Assembly (NCBI GenBank): GCA_027487485.1
Contig: JAIYDN010000012.1
Span: 310,001 to 374,000 of the forward strand
From: Planctomycetaceae bacterium
Lineage (GTDB): Bacteria > Planctomycetota > Planctomycetia > Pirellulales > Pirellulaceae
DNA: 64,000 bases
Direction of reading: 5' to 3'
A program made the translations under genes and the position numbers. Shown here piece after piece: positions 9,688 through 62,370 of this stretch. The notes under the pieces are model-generated. The model had not been told where the DNA came from. It did no database searches and was given only the letters and a program-made list of their open reading frames with translations. Within the stretch, counting starts at the first letter, position 1. Each line of letters opens with the position of its first letter.

Positions 9688-9830
9688 GTTCAAAAATTCT
9701 GGGGTAGCGACCCAATTTCAGGGGCAAACGAAAAGAATAGGTAAAAACTGTAGAAACAAGAGTATACCAAAGGCTCATGCGTTTTTACGCACTTCTTGAC
9801 GAATTGGGTACATCAAGGTTCAATAAAGGG

Positions 9831-10712
9831 ATGAGCAAACAAAAAATCTTAATCCAGCTTGATTCTGACTCACAGGCCAGCGTGTTTGACGCTGTTGTAG
9901 CGATTGATGCGGGAGTAGATCACTTGCTTCAGCACTCGGGCGTAACCGTTGATAACGTTCGTTCGCTGGTCCATGGTGCGATGTACACGCGTGGGCCAAG
10001 CGACCTGAAGAACACTGCGATCTTTATTGGCGGTACGAACGTCAACGACGGAGAGGCGATTGCTGCGGTTGCTTTGGAATCGTTTCTCGATCCATTCCGC
10101 GTTTCCATCATGTTAGACAGCAACGGTGCGAACAGCACGGCTGCTGCGACGGTTCTTTGTGCAACTAGACATTTGAAGCTAGAACGGGCCAGCGCTTTGG
10201 TCATGGCAGCAACTGGGTCCGTTGGTCAGCGAGTTTGCCAAATCCTTGCCAACGAAAAGTGCTTTACGTACGTTGCGTCCCGATCACTGGAACGCTCCCA
10301 AGAATGCATTCGGCTATTGGTTGCCGGCGGAGCCAATGAAAAGTATCTGAAGCCACTCGCTTCCTCCGATGACGTGGAACTGACCCAAGTTCTCAGCTCA
10401 GTCCAAATGGTCTTCGGGTGCGGCGCTGCTGGTGCTGGTCTTCTGAACGAATCGCAACTCAGTAAGGCCACCAATCTGAAGGTTGCCATCGATCTCAATG
10501 CGGTGCCCCCATCGGGAATTGCGGGAATTGCGATTATGGACAAAGGCAAGCAACGAGGCGAACGTTTTGATTACGGTGCCTTGGGTGTCGGAGGGTTGAA
10601 AATGAAAATTCACAAGGCTTCTCTCGCGGCTCTTTTCCATTCGAACAACCAATTTCTTGATTGCCAAGAAATGTTAGCCATTGGCGAGCAGATTCTACGA
10701 GCCGCTAGCTAA
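9831..10712 (+). CDS. NAD(P)-dependent methylenetetrahydromethanopterin dehydrogenase
   Basis: Oxidises methylene-tetrahydromethanopterin (or the folate analogue) to the methenyl form in C1 transfer; planctomycetes carry this archaeal-type pathway. The N terminus (KILIQLDSDSQASVFDAVVAIDAG) and the HGAMYTRGP and LDSNGANSTAAA stretches are characteristic of the MtdA/MtdB/MtdC group. A Rossmann-type nucleotide site lies at about residues 123-150 (ALVMAATGSVGQRVCQIL). I cannot decide from sequence alone between MtdB-like and planctomycete MtdC-like. The reading frame extends 18 codons upstream, but ATG 9831 starts exactly at the conserved N terminus, directly after AAAGGG. It is divergent from dnaX. 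The downstream cimA leader begins about 150 bp later, and no terminator is seen directly after this gene. Confidence 0.85.
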   Translation: MSKQKILIQLDSDSQASVFDAVVAIDAGVDHLLQHSGVTVDNVRSLVHGAMYTRGPSDLKNTAIFIGGTNVNDGEAIAAVALESFLDPFRVSIMLDSNGANSTAAATVLCATRHLKLERASALVMAATGSVGQRVCQILANEKCFTYVASRSLERSQECIRLLVAGGANEKYLKPLASSDDVELTQVLSSVQMVFGCGAAGAGLLNESQLSKATNLKVAIDLNAVPPSGIAGIAIMDKGKQRGERFDYGALGVGGLKMKIHKASLAALFHSNNQFLDCQEMLAIGEQILRAAS

Positions 10713-10858
10713 GGGCCGCCGGCTAAGAGTCTGGATGCCGGTGGTGGCACGCCTGAGAGTTTTCCGCTGTCAACAAATCGGTCAGAACCCCTCGCAAAAA
10801 GTGGCTTTGTCACGTAAGCTTAGCGGGTCTGAGAAATTCACCAACGGAAAACCTATCG

Positions 10859-10912
10859 ATGTTCCCGTCGTACAGCCATTGCAACGTCATTATTATTCCC
10901 GTCCACAATTAG
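10859..10912 (+). CDS. putative Ile/Val leader peptide upstream of cimA
   Basis: A 17-codon ORF (ATG 10859, TAG 10910-10912) encodes MFPSYSHCNVIIIPVHN. Three consecutive Ile codons (ATT x3, 10889-10897) are flanked by Val codons on either side. The stop codon touches a segment (10911-10920) that can pair with the 5' arm of the terminator before cimA. This is the layout of a ribosome-stalling leader that senses charged tRNA-Ile and tRNA-Val. A GGAAAA about ten bases upstream is a weak ribosome binding site. The reading is from sequence; expression and function are inference. Confidence 0.6.
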   Translation: MFPSYSHCNVIIIPVHN

Positions 10913-11001
10913 GCTCGGGGATTCGCTGGCACTGCAAGATGAACTTGCGAAACACAAATCCAAACCCCTGAAGCCTAACTTAAAGGCTCCAGGGGTTTTT
11001 T
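10911..11001 (+). promoter_or_regulatory. transcription attenuator before cimA: antiterminator and intrinsic terminator
   Basis: The terminator stem is 10965-10976 (CCCCTGAAGCCT) with 10984-10995 (AGGCTCCAGGGG), one A-C mismatch, a 7-base loop and six T at 10996-11001; A-T pairs extend it. The segment 10911-10920 (AGGCTCGGGG) nearly repeats the terminator 3' arm and can pair with the same 5' arm: AGGCT with 10972-10976 and GGGG with 10965-10968. A ribosome stalled on the Ile codons would leave 10911-10920 free and favour the antiterminator, while a ribosome at the leader stop would cover it and allow termination. The cimA ATG is 42 bp beyond the T run. The mutually exclusive pairings are visible; the regulatory role is inferred. 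Confidence 0.7.
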
Positions 11002-11043
11002 CATTTCAACTTTAGTCGAACGCAATCCACCAACAGAATCATC

Positions 11044-12633
11044 ATGTCGACTCGATCCATCCACACGTACGATACCACGCTTCGCGACGGAACTCAGGGC
11101 GAAGGGGTTAGCCTGTCCCTGCAGGATAAATTGAATATTGCAGTTCGGCTGGCCGAAATGGGGATCGACATGATCGAAGGGGGCTACCCATTGTCCAATG
11201 AAAAGGACACCATGTTTTTTCAGCGCATTCGTTCGCTGCCCATGGGAAATAGCTTGGTTTGCGCTTTCGGTATGACTCGGCGACGCGGCGTTACCGTGCA
11301 AGAAGATCCAGGCATGAAGGCTCTGATCGCTGCGCAAACTCCCGTGATTACCGTGGTCGGAAAGTCTTGGGATTTTCATGCAACGGAAGTGCTTGGCGTC
11401 ACTCTGCAAGAAAACCTTGACATGATTGGGGAAAGCGTGGCACACTTGGCCAAGTACTCGCAAGTGGTCTATGACGCCGAACATTTTTTTGATGGATACA
11501 AAGCCAATCGCCAATACGCGTTGCAAGCGATTCGGGCTGCCGCAACCTCTGGGGCGAAATGGATTGTTTTTTGCGACACCAATGGCGGGACTCTTCCCGA
11601 GGAAGTCGCGGCGATTGTTACTGATGCAAGGTCTAGCCTAGAGGGAACCGGCGTGCGGCTTGGAATTCACTGTCACAACGACGGGGATCTGGCGACAGCC
11701 AACTCCCTATCGGCGATCGACGCTGGCTGCGAGCAAGTCCAGGGCACCATCAACGGAATTGGCGAACGTTGTGGCAATGCAGATTTGGTGACGGTTCTGG
11801 CCAATTTGCAATTCAAGAAAAAGGGCTACAGCGTTCTTGGGGGGCGATCTTTAGAACACCTCACCGAGCTTTCGCGATACGTTTACGAAACAGCGAATTT
11901 GCAACTGCGCAGCGGGCAACCCTTCGTCGGTCGCAGCGCGTTCGCTCATAAAGGAGGAATGCACGTCCATGCCGTCAACAAGTTCGCTCATACCTATGAA
12001 CATATGGATCCGGCCTTAATCGGCAATGAACGCAGAATTCTCGTAAGCGAATTGTCTGGCCGATCCAATATCGCAGCCTTGACTGCGGACCATAAACTAC
12101 CGAACGATCGAGCCGTTCTGGATAAAATCCTAGGCGAGGTTGTTGCTAAAGAGAATCAAGGGTACCAGTACGAAGCGGCCGAAGGTTCGTTCGACCTTCT
12201 TGTGAAACGATGCATCGGTTCCTACGTTGAACATTTTCAGACGATCAAGTACCAAATCCTATCTGGTGATCTCGATACCACGCGAAACCAAACCTTCGCC
12301 GAAGCGATCCTCAAGATTCAAGTGGATGGCCAAGTTCGCGTCGAAGCGGCCGAAGGACACGGACCAGTCAATGCCATGGATGCAGCCTTGCGCAAGGTGT
12401 TGTTGCCCTTCTACCCCGCGTTGGATTCCATGCAGCTCACGGACTTCAAGGTACGCGTTGTGAACGGACAAGCAGGCACCGCCGCACGCATTCGCGTCAA
12501 CATCGAAAGCACCGATGGCCATGATACTTGGCGAACCATCGGTGTCAGCGAAAACATCATAGAGGCTAGCTGGCATGCGTTGGTCGATGCCGTCGAATTT
12601 CGACTCAACCAAACTCGCGCAGCGGCCAACTAG
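11044..12633 (+). CDS. cimA: (R)-citramalate synthase
   Basis: Condenses pyruvate with acetyl-CoA to (R)-citramalate, the first step of the threonine-independent isoleucine route. It is a DRE-TIM metallolyase: the N-terminal DTTLRDGTQGEG motif holds the catalytic Arg-Asp pair, GIHCHNDGDLATANS holds the metal-binding His residues, and GTINGIGERCGN is the conserved glycine loop. The C-terminal part (about 390-525) is the LeuA regulatory dimer domain expected for feedback inhibition. The 529-residue length, the N-terminal IHTYDTTLRDG form and the EGGYPLSNEKD segment match the CimA/TIGR00977 group rather than LeuA or homocitrate synthase. valS follows 168 bp downstream on the same strand, so branched-chain supply and tRNA charging may be co-controlled by the attenuator at 10911-11001. 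Confidence 0.9.
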   Translation: MSTRSIHTYDTTLRDGTQGEGVSLSLQDKLNIAVRLAEMGIDMIEGGYPLSNEKDTMFFQRIRSLPMGNSLVCAFGMTRRRGVTVQEDPGMKALIAAQTPVITVVGKSWDFHATEVLGVTLQENLDMIGESVAHLAKYSQVVYDAEHFFDGYKANRQYALQAIRAAATSGAKWIVFCDTNGGTLPEEVAAIVTDARSSLEGTGVRLGIHCHNDGDLATANSLSAIDAGCEQVQGTINGIGERCGNADLVTVLANLQFKKKGYSVLGGRSLEHLTELSRYVYETANLQLRSGQPFVGRSAFAHKGGMHVHAVNKFAHTYEHMDPALIGNERRILVSELSGRSNIAALTADHKLPNDRAVLDKILGEVVAKENQGYQYEAAEGSFDLLVKRCIGSYVEHFQTIKYQILSGDLDTTRNQTFAEAILKIQVDGQVRVEAAEGHGPVNAMDAALRKVLLPFYPALDSMQLTDFKVRVVNGQAGTAARIRVNIESTDGHDTWRTIGVSENIIEASWHALVDAVEFRLNQTRAAAN

Positions 12634-12641
12634 TTAGACGG

Positions 12642-12715
12642 GATTGTCATGGCTTCATCGCCTGCGACAATCAACCCAAATTTTGGAGAGCTTCCCAAAA
12701 AAAGATGCTCTCCAA
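12642..12715 (+). repeat. two inverted repeats between cimA and valS
   Basis: GATTGTC at 12642-12648 pairs with GACAATC at 12666-12672, and TTGGAGAGC at about 12683-12691 pairs with GCTCTCCAA at 12707-12715. Neither hairpin is followed by a T run, so they are not intrinsic terminators. They could be processing or regulatory structures in the valS 5' region, or simply chance. Confidence 0.5.
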
Positions 12716-12738
12716 TGAGTTAGCAACTTTCATCAAGT

Positions 12739-12801: not shown

Positions 12802-15800
12802 ATGAACCCAGAAACCAAAGAAATTCCCAACCGATTTGATTTCGCTTCGGCTGCCCCCGAGATCTACCAACAATGGTTGGACAAAGGGTGCTTCAACGCG
12901 GACGTGGACCCATCCAAAAAGCCTTTTACGATCGTGATCCCCCCGCCGAATGTTACCGGCGCATTGCACCTGGGACATGCCTTGAACAACACGCTTCAAG
13001 ATATCCAAATTCGGATGCATCGAATGCAAGGATTTTCGGCCCTTTGGATGCCTGGAACGGATCACGCGGGAATCGCCACCCAAGCCATCGTTGAAAAGCG
13101 ATTGAAAGAAACCGAGAACAAGACGCGGCACGACTTGGGACGCGAAAAACTAGTCGAACGAATTTGGCAATGGAAGGAGCAGTATGAAAAGCGAATTCTG
13201 GGCCAGCTCCAACAAGTGGGCTGTTCGTGCGATTGGCGACGCACTCGATTTACGCTGGACCCGATGTGCGCGCGCGCCGTTCGCTCCACTTTCTTTGATC
13301 TCTTTTCCAAGGGGCTTATCTATCGCGGGAAAAGACTGGTTAACTGGGACACGTTTTTGCAAACTGCTGTAAGCGACGATGAAGTCAATCCTGAAACGGT
13401 CAAGGGGCATTTCTGGCACTTGCGCTACCCTATCGTCGATGCCAAACCAGGCGAACCTACCTACGTAACCATCGCGACAACTCGGCCGGAAACCATGTTG
13501 GGGGACACCGCAGTCGCAGTCCATCCTGATCCCGAGGAAGCGCTGAACAAGTACGAAGCGACTCTCAAGGAAAAGCTGGAAGGGGCAAATGCAAAAGACC
13601 AACCCGGCATTCAAGCTCAACTGGATGACCTGTCGGTCCGTCGACAGGAATTGTTACCTCAATTGATTCTGTTGGCCAATATGGCCAGAGATGGCCGGAA
13701 GCTGCGTCTGCCGCTTGTGGAGCGGGAGATACCGCTGGTGGTGGATGCTTGGGCGAAACCGGAACTGGGCAGCGGATGCGTCAAGATTACGCCGGCTCAC
13801 GACCCGAACGACTACGAGGTTGCGCTGCGGTGTTCTTTGCCAATGCTGAACATCATGAATCCGGATGGAACCGTCAACGAGAATGGTGGCCCTTATGCAG
13901 GCCTAACCATGCCCAAAGCACGGAACAAAGTCGTCGCTGCCATGGACTATCTTGGATTCCTAGAAAAGACAGAAGATCGAGAGATTGAACTGAAGCATAG
14001 CGATCGAAGCAAGACTCCCATCGAACCGTACTTGGCTGACCAGTGGTTCGTACGCATGGAGCAATTGGCTCAATCGGCCATGGACGCCGTTTCGAATGGT
14101 GACGTCAAAATCTATCCAGCTCGCTATGCCAATGGGTACATGGATTGGCTGGGTGAGAAGCGTGATTGGCCCGTGGGGAGACAGTTGTGGTGGGGACATC
14201 AAATTCCTATTTGGAGCAAATCGTTTGAAAATGTTAGCGATGCACAATCGTTGAAGTTCAAGATCGATGCGATGCCCGAACGTGCATCGGGACTGCTGAG
14301 TGTTTCTTTGGAAGAGCCCACGACATTGCATGTTTGCATTCGCGATGAAGACCCTGGATTAGAAGCAAAGCTCCAGTCGCTAGGGCTCGAACGGCAAGCG
14401 GACGTTCTTGACACGTGGTTCTCCTCCGCCCTGTGGCCGCATTCGACCCTGGGCTGGCCCGATCAAACCGCCGATTTAGAATACTTTTATCCCACCAGTA
14501 CGTTGATCACATCGCGCGACATCATCACGCTTTGGGTCGCCCGTATGGTTCTGATGGGGCTGAACAATGTCGGTAAAGTTCCTTTCCAAGAAGTTTTCAT
14601 CCATCCAAAAATTCTGGACGGTTATGGCGAGACCATGTCCAAGAGCAAGGGCAACGGTGTTGACCCGCTGGATGTCATCAACAAGTTTGGCCCCGACGCT
14701 CTTCGCTTCGGATTGGTATGGCTGTGCACGGAAACGCAAGATGTGCGAATGCCGGTCCAGTTCGAGTGCCCGCACTGCGAAGCGCTCGTGAATCAAACCA
14801 AAGAAAATCGAGCTCAGCCGACAGTCGTTTGCGACAAATGCGGCAAAACATTTTCAACGCAATGGGCCGAAGCTGAATCCGACAAGGCGCATCCAAAAGC
14901 CCCGGTGGTGAGCGAGCGATTCGAGGTGGCTCGGAACTTCGTCAATAAACTTTGGAACGCGTCCCGGTTTGTCATGATGAATCTGGAGGGCTTTCAACCT
15001 CAAGCCGTGGACTTTGAAAAGCTACCGCTGGAAGACCAGTGGATTCTGTCTCGATTAGCCACCGTGACCAAGGCGACTCAGACGGAACTGAAACGCTATC
15101 ACTACGCAGAAGCAGCCCGAGTTGTTTATGACTTTGCTTGGGACCATTTCTGTTCTCTCTATGTCGAGATGGCCAAACCCCGGTTGCAAGATCCTGCGGC
15201 TCGACCATTGGTTCAACAGATATTGGCGCATTGCTTGGACTCGATGTTGCGATTGCTCCATCCAATTACCCCGTTTGTGACGGAAGCCATTTGGCAAGAG
15301 CTCGCTCGTTTCGCTCCAAGTCGAGATCTGCAATCAACAGCTCCCCCTTCGAAATGGATTATCCAGGCAAGCTGGCCAACCGTGAACGAAGCGCACATTC
15401 GTCCATCCGTCGAAAAGCAGTTTGCTCACTTTGTCGACTTAGTGGGAGCCATTCGCGAAATTCGTTCAAGACAAAACCTTGGCCCCAAAGACCAAGTTCC
15501 TTTCTGCGTACGCTGCGAACCAGAAATGGAACAACTGCTTGCGCCGATGTCAAGCTTTTTGTCCAGCATGGCTGGCGCTCACGCTACCCAATGGAGCCAA
15601 AATCCTACTCTGCCATCGATCAACGCGCACGTTGCTATCGATCAGATGGATGTCTTCGTCGATTTGACACAATTCATTGATGTCGCGGCAGAGATCTCGA
15701 GAAACGAAAAACTGTTGAGCAATCTGATGAAACAGATTCAAGGTAAAGAAGGCAGACTGTCCAATGAATCGTTCGTAAGCAAAGCACCGGCAGATATCAT

Positions 15801-15885
15801 TGCGAAAGAACGCCAGGCATTGGAGGAATTGATTGCCCAACGTTCTGTAGCCGAGCAAGCGATTGAAAAGTTGAGACAGCTCTAG
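12802..15885 (+). CDS. valS: valyl-tRNA synthetase
   Basis: Charges tRNA-Val and edits mischarged Thr. The class I HIGH motif is ALHLGHALNN (about residues 54-63) after PPPNVTG. The second signature reads TMSKS (611-615) rather than KMSKS. The editing domain is present (TTRPETMLGDTAVAVHP; KITPAHDPNDYEV), as is the C-terminal anticodon domain and a coiled-coil arm at about 940-1027 typical of ValRS. Two insertions are notable. About 45 residues with a helical, charged pattern sit in the editing domain after the GDTAVAVHP segment, and a Cys4 zinc-ribbon-like insert (Cys656, Cys659, Cys677, Cys680) sits between the KMSKS region and the anticodon domain. Total length (1027) exceeds the usual 880-950. 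It lies downstream of cimA and 6 bp before the next gene. Confidence 0.96.
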   Translation: MNPETKEIPNRFDFASAAPEIYQQWLDKGCFNADVDPSKKPFTIVIPPPNVTGALHLGHALNNTLQDIQIRMHRMQGFSALWMPGTDHAGIATQAIVEKRLKETENKTRHDLGREKLVERIWQWKEQYEKRILGQLQQVGCSCDWRRTRFTLDPMCARAVRSTFFDLFSKGLIYRGKRLVNWDTFLQTAVSDDEVNPETVKGHFWHLRYPIVDAKPGEPTYVTIATTRPETMLGDTAVAVHPDPEEALNKYEATLKEKLEGANAKDQPGIQAQLDDLSVRRQELLPQLILLANMARDGRKLRLPLVEREIPLVVDAWAKPELGSGCVKITPAHDPNDYEVALRCSLPMLNIMNPDGTVNENGGPYAGLTMPKARNKVVAAMDYLGFLEKTEDREIELKHSDRSKTPIEPYLADQWFVRMEQLAQSAMDAVSNGDVKIYPARYANGYMDWLGEKRDWPVGRQLWWGHQIPIWSKSFENVSDAQSLKFKIDAMPERASGLLSVSLEEPTTLHVCIRDEDPGLEAKLQSLGLERQADVLDTWFSSALWPHSTLGWPDQTADLEYFYPTSTLITSRDIITLWVARMVLMGLNNVGKVPFQEVFIHPKILDGYGETMSKSKGNGVDPLDVINKFGPDALRFGLVWLCTETQDVRMPVQFECPHCEALVNQTKENRAQPTVVCDKCGKTFSTQWAEAESDKAHPKAPVVSERFEVARNFVNKLWNASRFVMMNLEGFQPQAVDFEKLPLEDQWILSRLATVTKATQTELKRYHYAEAARVVYDFAWDHFCSLYVEMAKPRLQDPAARPLVQQILAHCLDSMLRLLHPITPFVTEAIWQELARFAPSRDLQSTAPPSKWIIQASWPTVNEAHIRPSVEKQFAHFVDLVGAIREIRSRQNLGPKDQVPFCVRCEPEMEQLLAPMSSFLSSMAGAHATQWSQNPTLPSINAHVAIDQMDVFVDLTQFIDVAAEISRNEKLLSNLMKQIQGKEGRLSNESFVSKAPADIIAKERQALEELIAQRSVAEQAIEKLRQL

Positions 15886-34497: not shown

Positions 34498-34887
34498 GAC
34501 CTGGGAGATTAATGCAATCGCTGGGCAGCAATGCCGAGAGGAAAGTCCGGGCTCCATAGAGCAAGGTGGTCGATAACGTCGACCGGTCGTAAGGCTAGGG
34601 AAAGTGCAACAGAAAGCAAACCGCTAAGCACCAGCTTAGTAAGGGTGAAACGGTGGGGTAAGAGCCCACCAGAACGCAGGGTGACTTGCGTTGCTAGGTA
34701 AACCCCACCTGGAGCAAGAACAAACAGAACGCCATCTTGATGAGTAGCCTAGCTGCCCATCAAGTGGGAAGCGGCTCGCGGCCTCGTGCGTTCGGGTTGT
34801 TCGCTTGACGCCGCGGGCAACTGCGGTGCTAGATAAATGATTGCAGCGCTTCGGCGAACAGAACCCGGCTTATCAATCTCCCAGGTC
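34498..34887 (+). ncRNA. rnpB: RNase P RNA (bacterial type A-like)
   Basis: The catalytic RNA that removes tRNA 5' leaders. The conserved 5' core GAGGAAAGTCCGGGCTC occurs at about 34539-34556, and the complementary 3' core ACAGAACCCGGCTTA near the end. The 13-bp terminal helix P1 is perfect: GACCTGGGAGATT at 34498-34510 with AATCTCCCAGGTC at 34875-34887. The about 390-base length is normal for type A. Further conserved elements, such as the GTGCAACAGAAAGCAAACCG and GGTAAACCCCA regions, are visible. The gene lies between the retropepsin-like gene (-) and the Uma2 gene (-). Confidence 0.98.
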
Positions 34888-34975
34888 ATTTTCATGAGAC
34901 TGGCTTGAACGGGCCCACGAAAGACGCCCACGGATCGTCAGCATCGAATACGGTAGCTATCGCCTGTGGCTTCAG

Positions 34976-62149: not shown

Positions 62150-62352
62150 GCCCCTCTGTCCGTTTACCTGAGAGATCTCGGCACGAGTGCCTTTCCCCTT
62201 CGGTGGATTCCTCGCAGTTGCGTCAACTACGGAATCGCTCTCCAGAGACGAAGAAGTGCTGGCGGTTCTTTTGCCTGAGCGGTTCAGGGCCCCTTGCGCC
62301 TTCGGCGTTTTGAGTCATGTCGTGACCGACTTGATCAAAATCTCTCCCACCA
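62150..62352 (-). ncRNA. tandem glycine riboswitch controlling gcvP
   Basis: Two glycine aptamers are visible in tandem on the minus strand. Aptamer 1 begins GGGAGAGA (62348-62341), has the GCCGAAGGCGCAAGG core (around 62313-62298) and ends CTCAGGCAAAAG (62279-62268). Aptamer 2 begins GGAGAGCG (62243-62236), has CCGAAGGGGAAAGG (around 62203-62190) and ends CTCTCAGGTAAACGGACAG (62174-62156). The order and the short linker are typical of tandem gcv riboswitches upstream of gcvP. About 140 bases separate it from the ATG; a GCTCC/GGGAGC hairpin near 62125-62145 is a candidate expression-platform element, but no T run was found. Confidence 0.93.
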
Positions 62353-62370
62353 GATTACGTTCGTGCCAAC

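Follow-up and report, generated by a model that had tools for sequence, protein, structure and literature searches.

A predicted ribosome-mediated transcription attenuator with isoleucine control codons upstream of cimA and valS in Planctomycetia

The cimA-valS locus and its leader

The window, that is, the whole stretch of 64,000 nucleotides analysed, carries on its forward strand the gene cimA for citramalate synthase (11044-12633, 529 amino acids; TIGR00977, 639.8 bits against a cut-off of 450), followed 168 nt further on by valS for valine--tRNA ligase (12802-15885, 1027 amino acids; TIGR00422, 896.1 bits against a cut-off of 612.1). Citramalate synthase acts in isoleucine synthesis, and the TIGR00977 assignment thereby places the regulated gene in the pathway of the amino acid that the leader described below would sense. 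An inverted repeat devoid of a U-run, TTGGAGAGC ... GCTCTCCAA, was noticed by eye in the cimA/valS intergenic region (about 12684-12716, forward strand). Directly upstream of the leader, a gene at 9777-10712 (forward strand) encodes a methylene-tetrahydromethanopterin dehydrogenase N-terminal domain (Mpt_N, PF09176). Elsewhere the window contains a bacterial class A RNase P RNA (34501-34888, forward strand, 306.5 bits) and a glycine riboswitch aptamer (62253-62359, reverse strand, 56.6 bits).

All parts of the element are on the forward strand. The leader peptide ORF (10859-10912), MFPSYSHCNVIIIPVHN, starts with the ATG at 10859 and comprises 17 codons followed by TAG (10910-10912). Its control codons, Val-Ile-Ile-Ile (GTC ATT ATT ATT, 10886-10897), are made up of Val at 10886-10888 and the three ATT at 10889-10897. 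Segment 1 (10895-10901) is the partner of 10916-10922 in a putative pause hairpin found in the minimum-free-energy fold. Segment 2 (10909-10920, TTAGGCTCGGGG) is the 5′ side of the antiterminator, mimics the 3′ arm of the terminator and runs across the stop codon of the leader; within it, positions 10911-10920 (AGGCTCGGGG) overlap that codon and resemble the terminator 3′ arm, segment 4 (10984-10995, AGGCTCCAGGGG). Segment 3 (10965-10976, CCCCTGAAGCCT) is at once the 5′ arm of the terminator and the 3′ side of the antiterminator. The U-run of the intrinsic terminator (TTTTTT, 10996-11001) is read directly in the sequence. From the leader stop to the cimA start there are 131 nt, with the intrinsic terminator in between, and in the 16 same-genus leaders listed this distance is 109-142 nt. 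An earlier note on this DNA had described a 17-codon ORF with three consecutive Ile, a mimic segment overlapping its stop and a terminator behind it, and all of these are present as described.

The terminator hairpin, with one A·C mismatch, has a calculated stability of −18.3 kcal/mol, and the 13-nt duplex of segment 2 with the terminator arm one of −18.8 kcal/mol. When the transcript was folded only as far as the terminator loop, all 12 bases of 10909-10920 were paired, with segment 3; the antiterminator, put at 5 plus 4 bp in the earlier note, is thus recovered as a pairing, its extent having been set too low. That antiterminator and terminator would exclude each other, as the note also held, agrees with the computed duplexes and folds and with the preference of the mimic for its own terminator arm across the class (see below). 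The minimum-free-energy fold contains in addition the helix 10895-10901/10916-10922, not mentioned in the earlier note, which would act as the classical 1:2 pause hairpin. RNA folded from at least 9 bases beyond the stop formed only the terminator plus a small hairpin unrelated to it. The fold of the region 10840-11043 has a z-score of −3.0, none of 200 shuffles being equally stable. According to the coordinates and to folds with masked ends, a ribosome stalled at the control codons would cover segment 1 and a ribosome at the stop codon would cover segment 2; the note had likewise supposed that stalling at Ile leaves the mimic segment free and that a ribosome at the stop covers it. The folds with and without masked 5′ ends therefore indicate that the geometry permits the three classical states.

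A simple terminator scan reported the hairpin in the window on the reverse strand only; the forward-strand hairpin was probably missed because the scan permits G-T pairs and no mismatch. No promoter was recognised upstream of the leader in the window, and TATAMT occurs in 8 of 23 leader regions of the genus against 1.0 expected. By eye, no clear Shine-Dalgarno sequence precedes the window leader.

Conservation within the genus

The genus was searched in 27 genomes with a covariance model built from 22 loci. In 26 of them cimA is present at 73% identity or more (in pieces in G013 and G007); the model matches the cimA site in 24 at E ≤ 0.1, and the full element is found at cimA in 23. The count is 23 and not 24 because the match in G025 (E 1.7e-5) is a degenerate remnant, and it includes G004, where the element and the piece of the cimA gene are on different contigs. 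At E ≤ 0.01 the model found no second site in any of the 27 genomes, apart from opposite-strand matches at the sites already named. G005 and G012 have cimA and lack the element; G023 has a distant cimA paralogue only, with neither ortholog nor element site. The G025 locus (L009) has lost the leader ORF and segment 2 and retained the terminator, with a TATAAT-like box shortly upstream, and may be a natural variant whose cimA is expressed differently.

An Ile-containing ORF with a common end position occurs in 22 same-genus loci, that of the window included. Three consecutive Ile are found in 17 of the 22 aligned leaders, the remainder having VIMI, VVII, ITI (two) and II. The distance from the control codons to segment 2 is constant in 21 of the 22 alignment rows, L030 being one codon shorter. 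An attenuator would be expected to show this combination of fixed spacing and a conserved Ile cluster within an otherwise varying peptide. The 2:3 helix retains its pairs in 95.5% of the alignment cells and the 3:4 helix in 95.8%; the 1:2 helix is weakly kept (62.5%). The stem cores are nearly invariant, and no compensatory changes beyond those of shuffles were counted in the three helices within the genus. The genus alone is therefore no proof of pairing, and the covariation is not counted as evidence.

Distribution across Planctomycetia

Fixed criteria were applied to the region upstream of cimA in 225 genomes; G266 was left out, and upstream regions were included for some, not all, of the genomes collected. 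A terminator of −11 kcal/mol or lower was required within 320 nt. Its 5′ arm had to form a 13-nt duplex of −12 kcal/mol or lower, and a leader counted as present where a short ORF stopped 10-110 nt ahead of the terminator and scored 3 or more for Ile/Val. The antiterminator criterion is weak when taken alone, being passed by 20 to 45% of shuffles in the genus, the family and family f11, and by 56% of those from the order's remaining families; hence only the joint criterion was used. Outside family f9, a predicted terminator precedes cimA in 145 of 175 Planctomycetia genomes, and 105 of these 145 also have leader and antiterminator, against 30 of 2900 dinucleotide shuffles of these regions. The joint criteria select 19 of 25 genomes of the same genus, 46 of 83 from other genera of the family (13 of these 83 have no terminator before cimA) and 9 of 13 from other families of the order. 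The counts are 18/26 in f10, 12/23 in f11, 1/2 in f12, 0/3 in f14 and 0/27 in f9, and a single genome of 23 outside the class passed. In G312, which belongs to a different class within the phylum, cimA (L202) is preceded by a terminator and by what may be a leader, MNIQNIIISIIINIGGD; judged from this one sequence, the element may extend beyond Planctomycetia.

Specific pairing was assessed by swapping the terminator arms between genomes, with the stretch 140-230 nt upstream as control. For 41 of 128 elements the own terminator arm scores as well as the top 5% of foreign arms, against 7 of 128 for the control. Within the genus, where the arms are nearly identical, there was no such preference (0/21 in the best 5%). 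The earlier note had proposed aligning related planctomycetes in search of conserved Ile/Val-rich short ORFs and covarying stems. The short ORFs, with antiterminator and terminator, recur far beyond the genus. The stems show no excess of compensatory change within it, and arm-specific pairing is seen at the level of the class.

Amino acid and codon specificity

To avoid favouring any amino acid, Ile, Leu and Val were weighted equally and the best 8-codon cluster of each leader was counted. In 117 of the 175 non-f9 genomes of the class, cimA leaders contain 346 Ile, 203 Val and 56 Leu (57, 34 and 9%). Leaders were also sought before leuA, ilvB and trpE, with 29 loci for each gene drawn from 30 listed genomes and distances taken from the start of the profile match and not from the start codon. 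A leader with a terminator precedes leuA at 15 of the 29 loci, and these leaders contain 80 Leu, 5 Ile and 1 Val (93% Leu); examples are MNQNLLLLQLLLITPGC and MNSSILLLPLLLSLPPQRGS, and the loci include L376, L379, L388, L392, L394, L397, L398, L400 and L401. Ile exceeds Leu in 106 of 117 cimA leaders and Leu exceeds Ile in 15 of 15 leuA leaders. On sequence grounds, the leuA element is a predicted second attenuator of the same design; leuA of the window genome had no terminator. Any terminator was seen at 5 of 29 ilvB loci, none with a branched-chain leader, and at 4 of 29 trpE loci, none with a leader of two or more Trp. With Ile leaders at cimA, Leu leaders at leuA and neither at ilvB or trpE, the amino acid of the leader fits the committed step of its own branch, and the notion of a branched-chain type of attenuator before cimA, advanced in the earlier note, is strengthened accordingly.

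The leaders also favour one synonymous Ile codon. Genus leaders have AUU and AUC in a ratio of 41:13, against 91:374 in the cimA genes of the same 17 genomes, and the ratio is likewise reversed between leader and cimA in 9 genomes of f11 and 5 of f10. Relative to the window's own genes the AUU bias is not seen (AUU 12 to AUC 16 in cimA; 46 to 45 in the upstream gene, cimA and valS together). In leuA leaders CUA is the commonest Leu codon (24 of 80). A published model and a codon swap in Salmonella, as set out in a portion of PMC1183508, hold that a suitable synonymous codon raises the sensitivity of the control.

Linkage to valS

Adjacency of valS was scored from flanks of at most 1500 nt or from tblastn pieces, with gaps of up to 3500 nt allowed. 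The two genes adjoin in 8 of the 24 same-genus genomes scored, these being the window's own subclade, in 63 of 72 from other genera of the family, in 7 of 8 from the order, and in 14/20, 18/19 and 0/1 of f10, f11 and f12, respectively. That the attenuator controls cimA alone, with valS an unrelated neighbour, is a possibility of some weight that we nevertheless regard as the less probable one. It would agree with the gap of 168 nt in the window and with the part of the genus that has valS elsewhere and has retained the element. A Val leader belonging to relocated valS genes themselves was considered and rejected: in the 14 stretches scanned there was no branched-chain leader, only one weak hairpin (G009), the gene start in G198 not having been located; such a lack of leaders fits control of cimA alone as well. 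Against it, the intergenic gap is just 10-30 nt in several relatives, and the mean number of Val in the last 16 leader codons, averaged by genus, is 2.38 where cimA adjoins valS (47 cells) against 0.96 elsewhere (11 cells). Permutation of the labels within families gave a one-sided p = 0.0056, a test that leaves out most f11 genomes and handles kinship in part. Ile codons show no excess with valS adjacency (3.63 adjacent, 4.25 away, p = 0.85). On the simplest reading of these sequences, the leader would sense Ile on behalf of cimA and Val on behalf of valS as long as the transcript is common to both, and the tentative inclusion of valS in the earlier note gains support from the widespread adjacency and from the Val codons that follow it. 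The loss of valS from the locus in 11 genus-level groups constitutes a natural experiment, suggesting that control codons follow operon content.

Proposed mechanism

From the observed anatomy, conservation, match of leader to pathway and arm-specific pairing, we infer that the leader is translated and that termination, starvation response and read-through into valS would follow the classical scheme; that the element is a classical ribosome-mediated transcription attenuator is, in our judgement, very probable. RNA polymerase would transcribe the leader and a ribosome would translate the 17-codon peptide. When Ile-tRNA is scarce, the ribosome would stall on the AUU run, covering segment 1, and segment 2, left free, would pair with segment 3, blocking the terminator and allowing transcription of cimA and, by read-through past it, probably of valS. 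With ample Ile-tRNA, the ribosome would reach the stop codon inside segment 2 and mask this segment; segments 3 and 4 would then pair as the terminator, and the transcript would end near 11001. The Val codons of the leader would give added sensitivity to Val-tRNA where the operon includes valS.

Leader translation might instead govern cimA by other means, through Rho-dependent polarity or reinitiation at cimA, the terminator being secondary. Leader genes near structural genes, including some of planctomycetes, have been proposed to boost translation via reinitiation (PMC4833913, in part). The leaders meant in that proposal stop about 10-16 bp before the start codon; the 131 nt between stop and start at the window locus include an intrinsic terminator, and the mimic segment favours its own terminator arm across the class, which makes this alternative improbable. 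Still less credit can be given to the hairpin being merely the 3′ terminator of the upstream Mpt_N-domain gene, with a coincidental short ORF. The terminator does lie about 250 nt past that gene and on the same strand, but among the loci checked the gene adjoins cimA only in the window genome and L003, while the element and its spacing stay with cimA, and the Ile-rich leader and mimic segment recur class-wide far above their joint frequency in shuffles. Least plausible of all is a sensor not coupled to translation (T-box or Ile riboswitch), with an incidental short ORF: T-boxes are predicted before ileS of several Actinobacteria (PMC1262725, in part), but no T-box or amino-acid riboswitch of Rfam matched the element at the gathering score or at E ≤ 5, and the conserved feature is an in-frame cluster of Ile-rich codons that becomes Leu at leuA.

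Relation to known attenuators

The attenuator thus favoured has well-known counterparts. Those of the enteric ilvGMEDA and ilvBN operons consist of a leader ORF with branched-chain codons, an alternative antiterminator and an intrinsic terminator. Rfam amino-acid leader families, such as the Leu, Thr and Trp leaders, gave a single match, His_leader, at 16.3 bits against a cut-off of 49 (E 2.8). Both enteric operons are named as attenuated in the portion of PMC1183508 available. The planctomycete element has in common with them the branched-codon leader ORF, the choice between antiterminator and terminator and a target in the branched-chain pathway; it differs in belonging to another phylum, in controlling cimA (probably also valS) instead of ilv genes, and in a leader that is mainly Ile, with Val variable and Leu rare, the sequence relation having been compared via Rfam only. 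In the leu attenuator of Salmonella the change of CUA to CUG lowers sensitivity (Carter et al., as cited in part of PMC1183508). Synonymous control-codon choice is alike in the planctomycete elements, with AUU in cimA and CUA commonest in leuA leaders; amino acid and gene differ for cimA, and the leuA element is the closer counterpart.

Candidate attenuators of ilvB, leuS and trp in Actinobacteria, including an ilvB of S. coelicolor in which codon substitution had no effect, are reported in a portion of PMC1262725. They, too, are leader peptides with terminators found by computation, and the one at leuS precedes a gene for an aminoacyl-tRNA synthetase; theirs include ilvB, whereas planctomycete ilvB lacks the element at the 29 loci. 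A leucine-rich attenuator peptide for branched-chain synthesis is mentioned for S. aureus in part of PMC5794164, and the planctomycete element has other codons and lies in another phylum. Leader-peptide attenuation in planctomycetes, or of cimA or valS, appeared in none of the literature matches listed, a scope outside which the survey of Lopatovskaya et al. 2010 falls. A leader-gene survey, in the part consulted, covers planctomycetes for leaders near the start codon (PMC4833913), and a term search of a premature-terminator survey gave no mention of planctomycetes (PMC2965389). In the literature searched, therefore, the mechanism is already known, and what appears new is the phylum, the cimA-valS gene pair and the tracking of valS by Val codons.

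Probable Isosphaeraceae and Gemmata genomes and transcription-translation coupling

We infer that f9 corresponds to Isosphaeraceae, f10 to Planctomycetaceae and f1 to Pirellulaceae. The cimA gene tree (drawn without support values) places f9 as sister to f11 plus f14, with a Gemmataceae-labelled genome inside f11. One label conflicts: a metagenome bin named Singulisphaera sp. GP187 (L269) falls in f11 beside that genome. An identification of f9 with Gemmataceae, which would have suited the claim of segregation discussed below, was rejected, given the Gemmataceae-labelled genome in f11 and the isolate Singulisphaera sp. GP187 in f9, the isolate being weighted above the conflicting bin. If the family assignment is right, the 0/27 count suggests a probable loss of the element from Isosphaeraceae. 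At leuA, one genome of f9 (G174) does have a possible Leu leader.

Squalene epoxidase is encoded in 8 of the 10 genomes of genus g84, which belongs to f11, and in 0 of 15 others tested, and in the one g84 locus read it adjoins squalene cyclase. According to part of PMC6606645, sterol synthesis has been reported from no planctomycete other than Gemmata obscuriglobus, in which the two genes lie together. This pattern and the sterol report indicate that g84 most likely represents Gemmata and its kin. At cimA, all 10 g84 genomes have a terminator, which 28-33 nt separate from the end of a short upstream ORF; 8 of the 10 pass the strict criteria.

Leader-peptide attenuation requires a ribosome close behind the polymerase. 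Coupling of transcription and translation in Gemmata is disputed, a nucleus-like segregation having been proposed for Gemmata obscuriglobus (PMC5394234 and PMC6212462, both in part). We lean, with modest confidence, towards a wider proposal: that the cimA-valS attenuator is ancestral to Planctomycetia, that its control codons change along with the genes of the operon, those for Val fading once valS leaves, and that translation is physically coupled to transcription in the Gemmata clade, at least on the leader. The element is predicted to be a precise amino-acid sensor for planctomycetes, with a matching Leu version at leuA. A working attenuator in Gemmata, if true, would show coupling at least on the cimA leader, contrary to the segregation proposal, and the element of the probable Gemmata clade would offer a direct genetic test of the coupling question.
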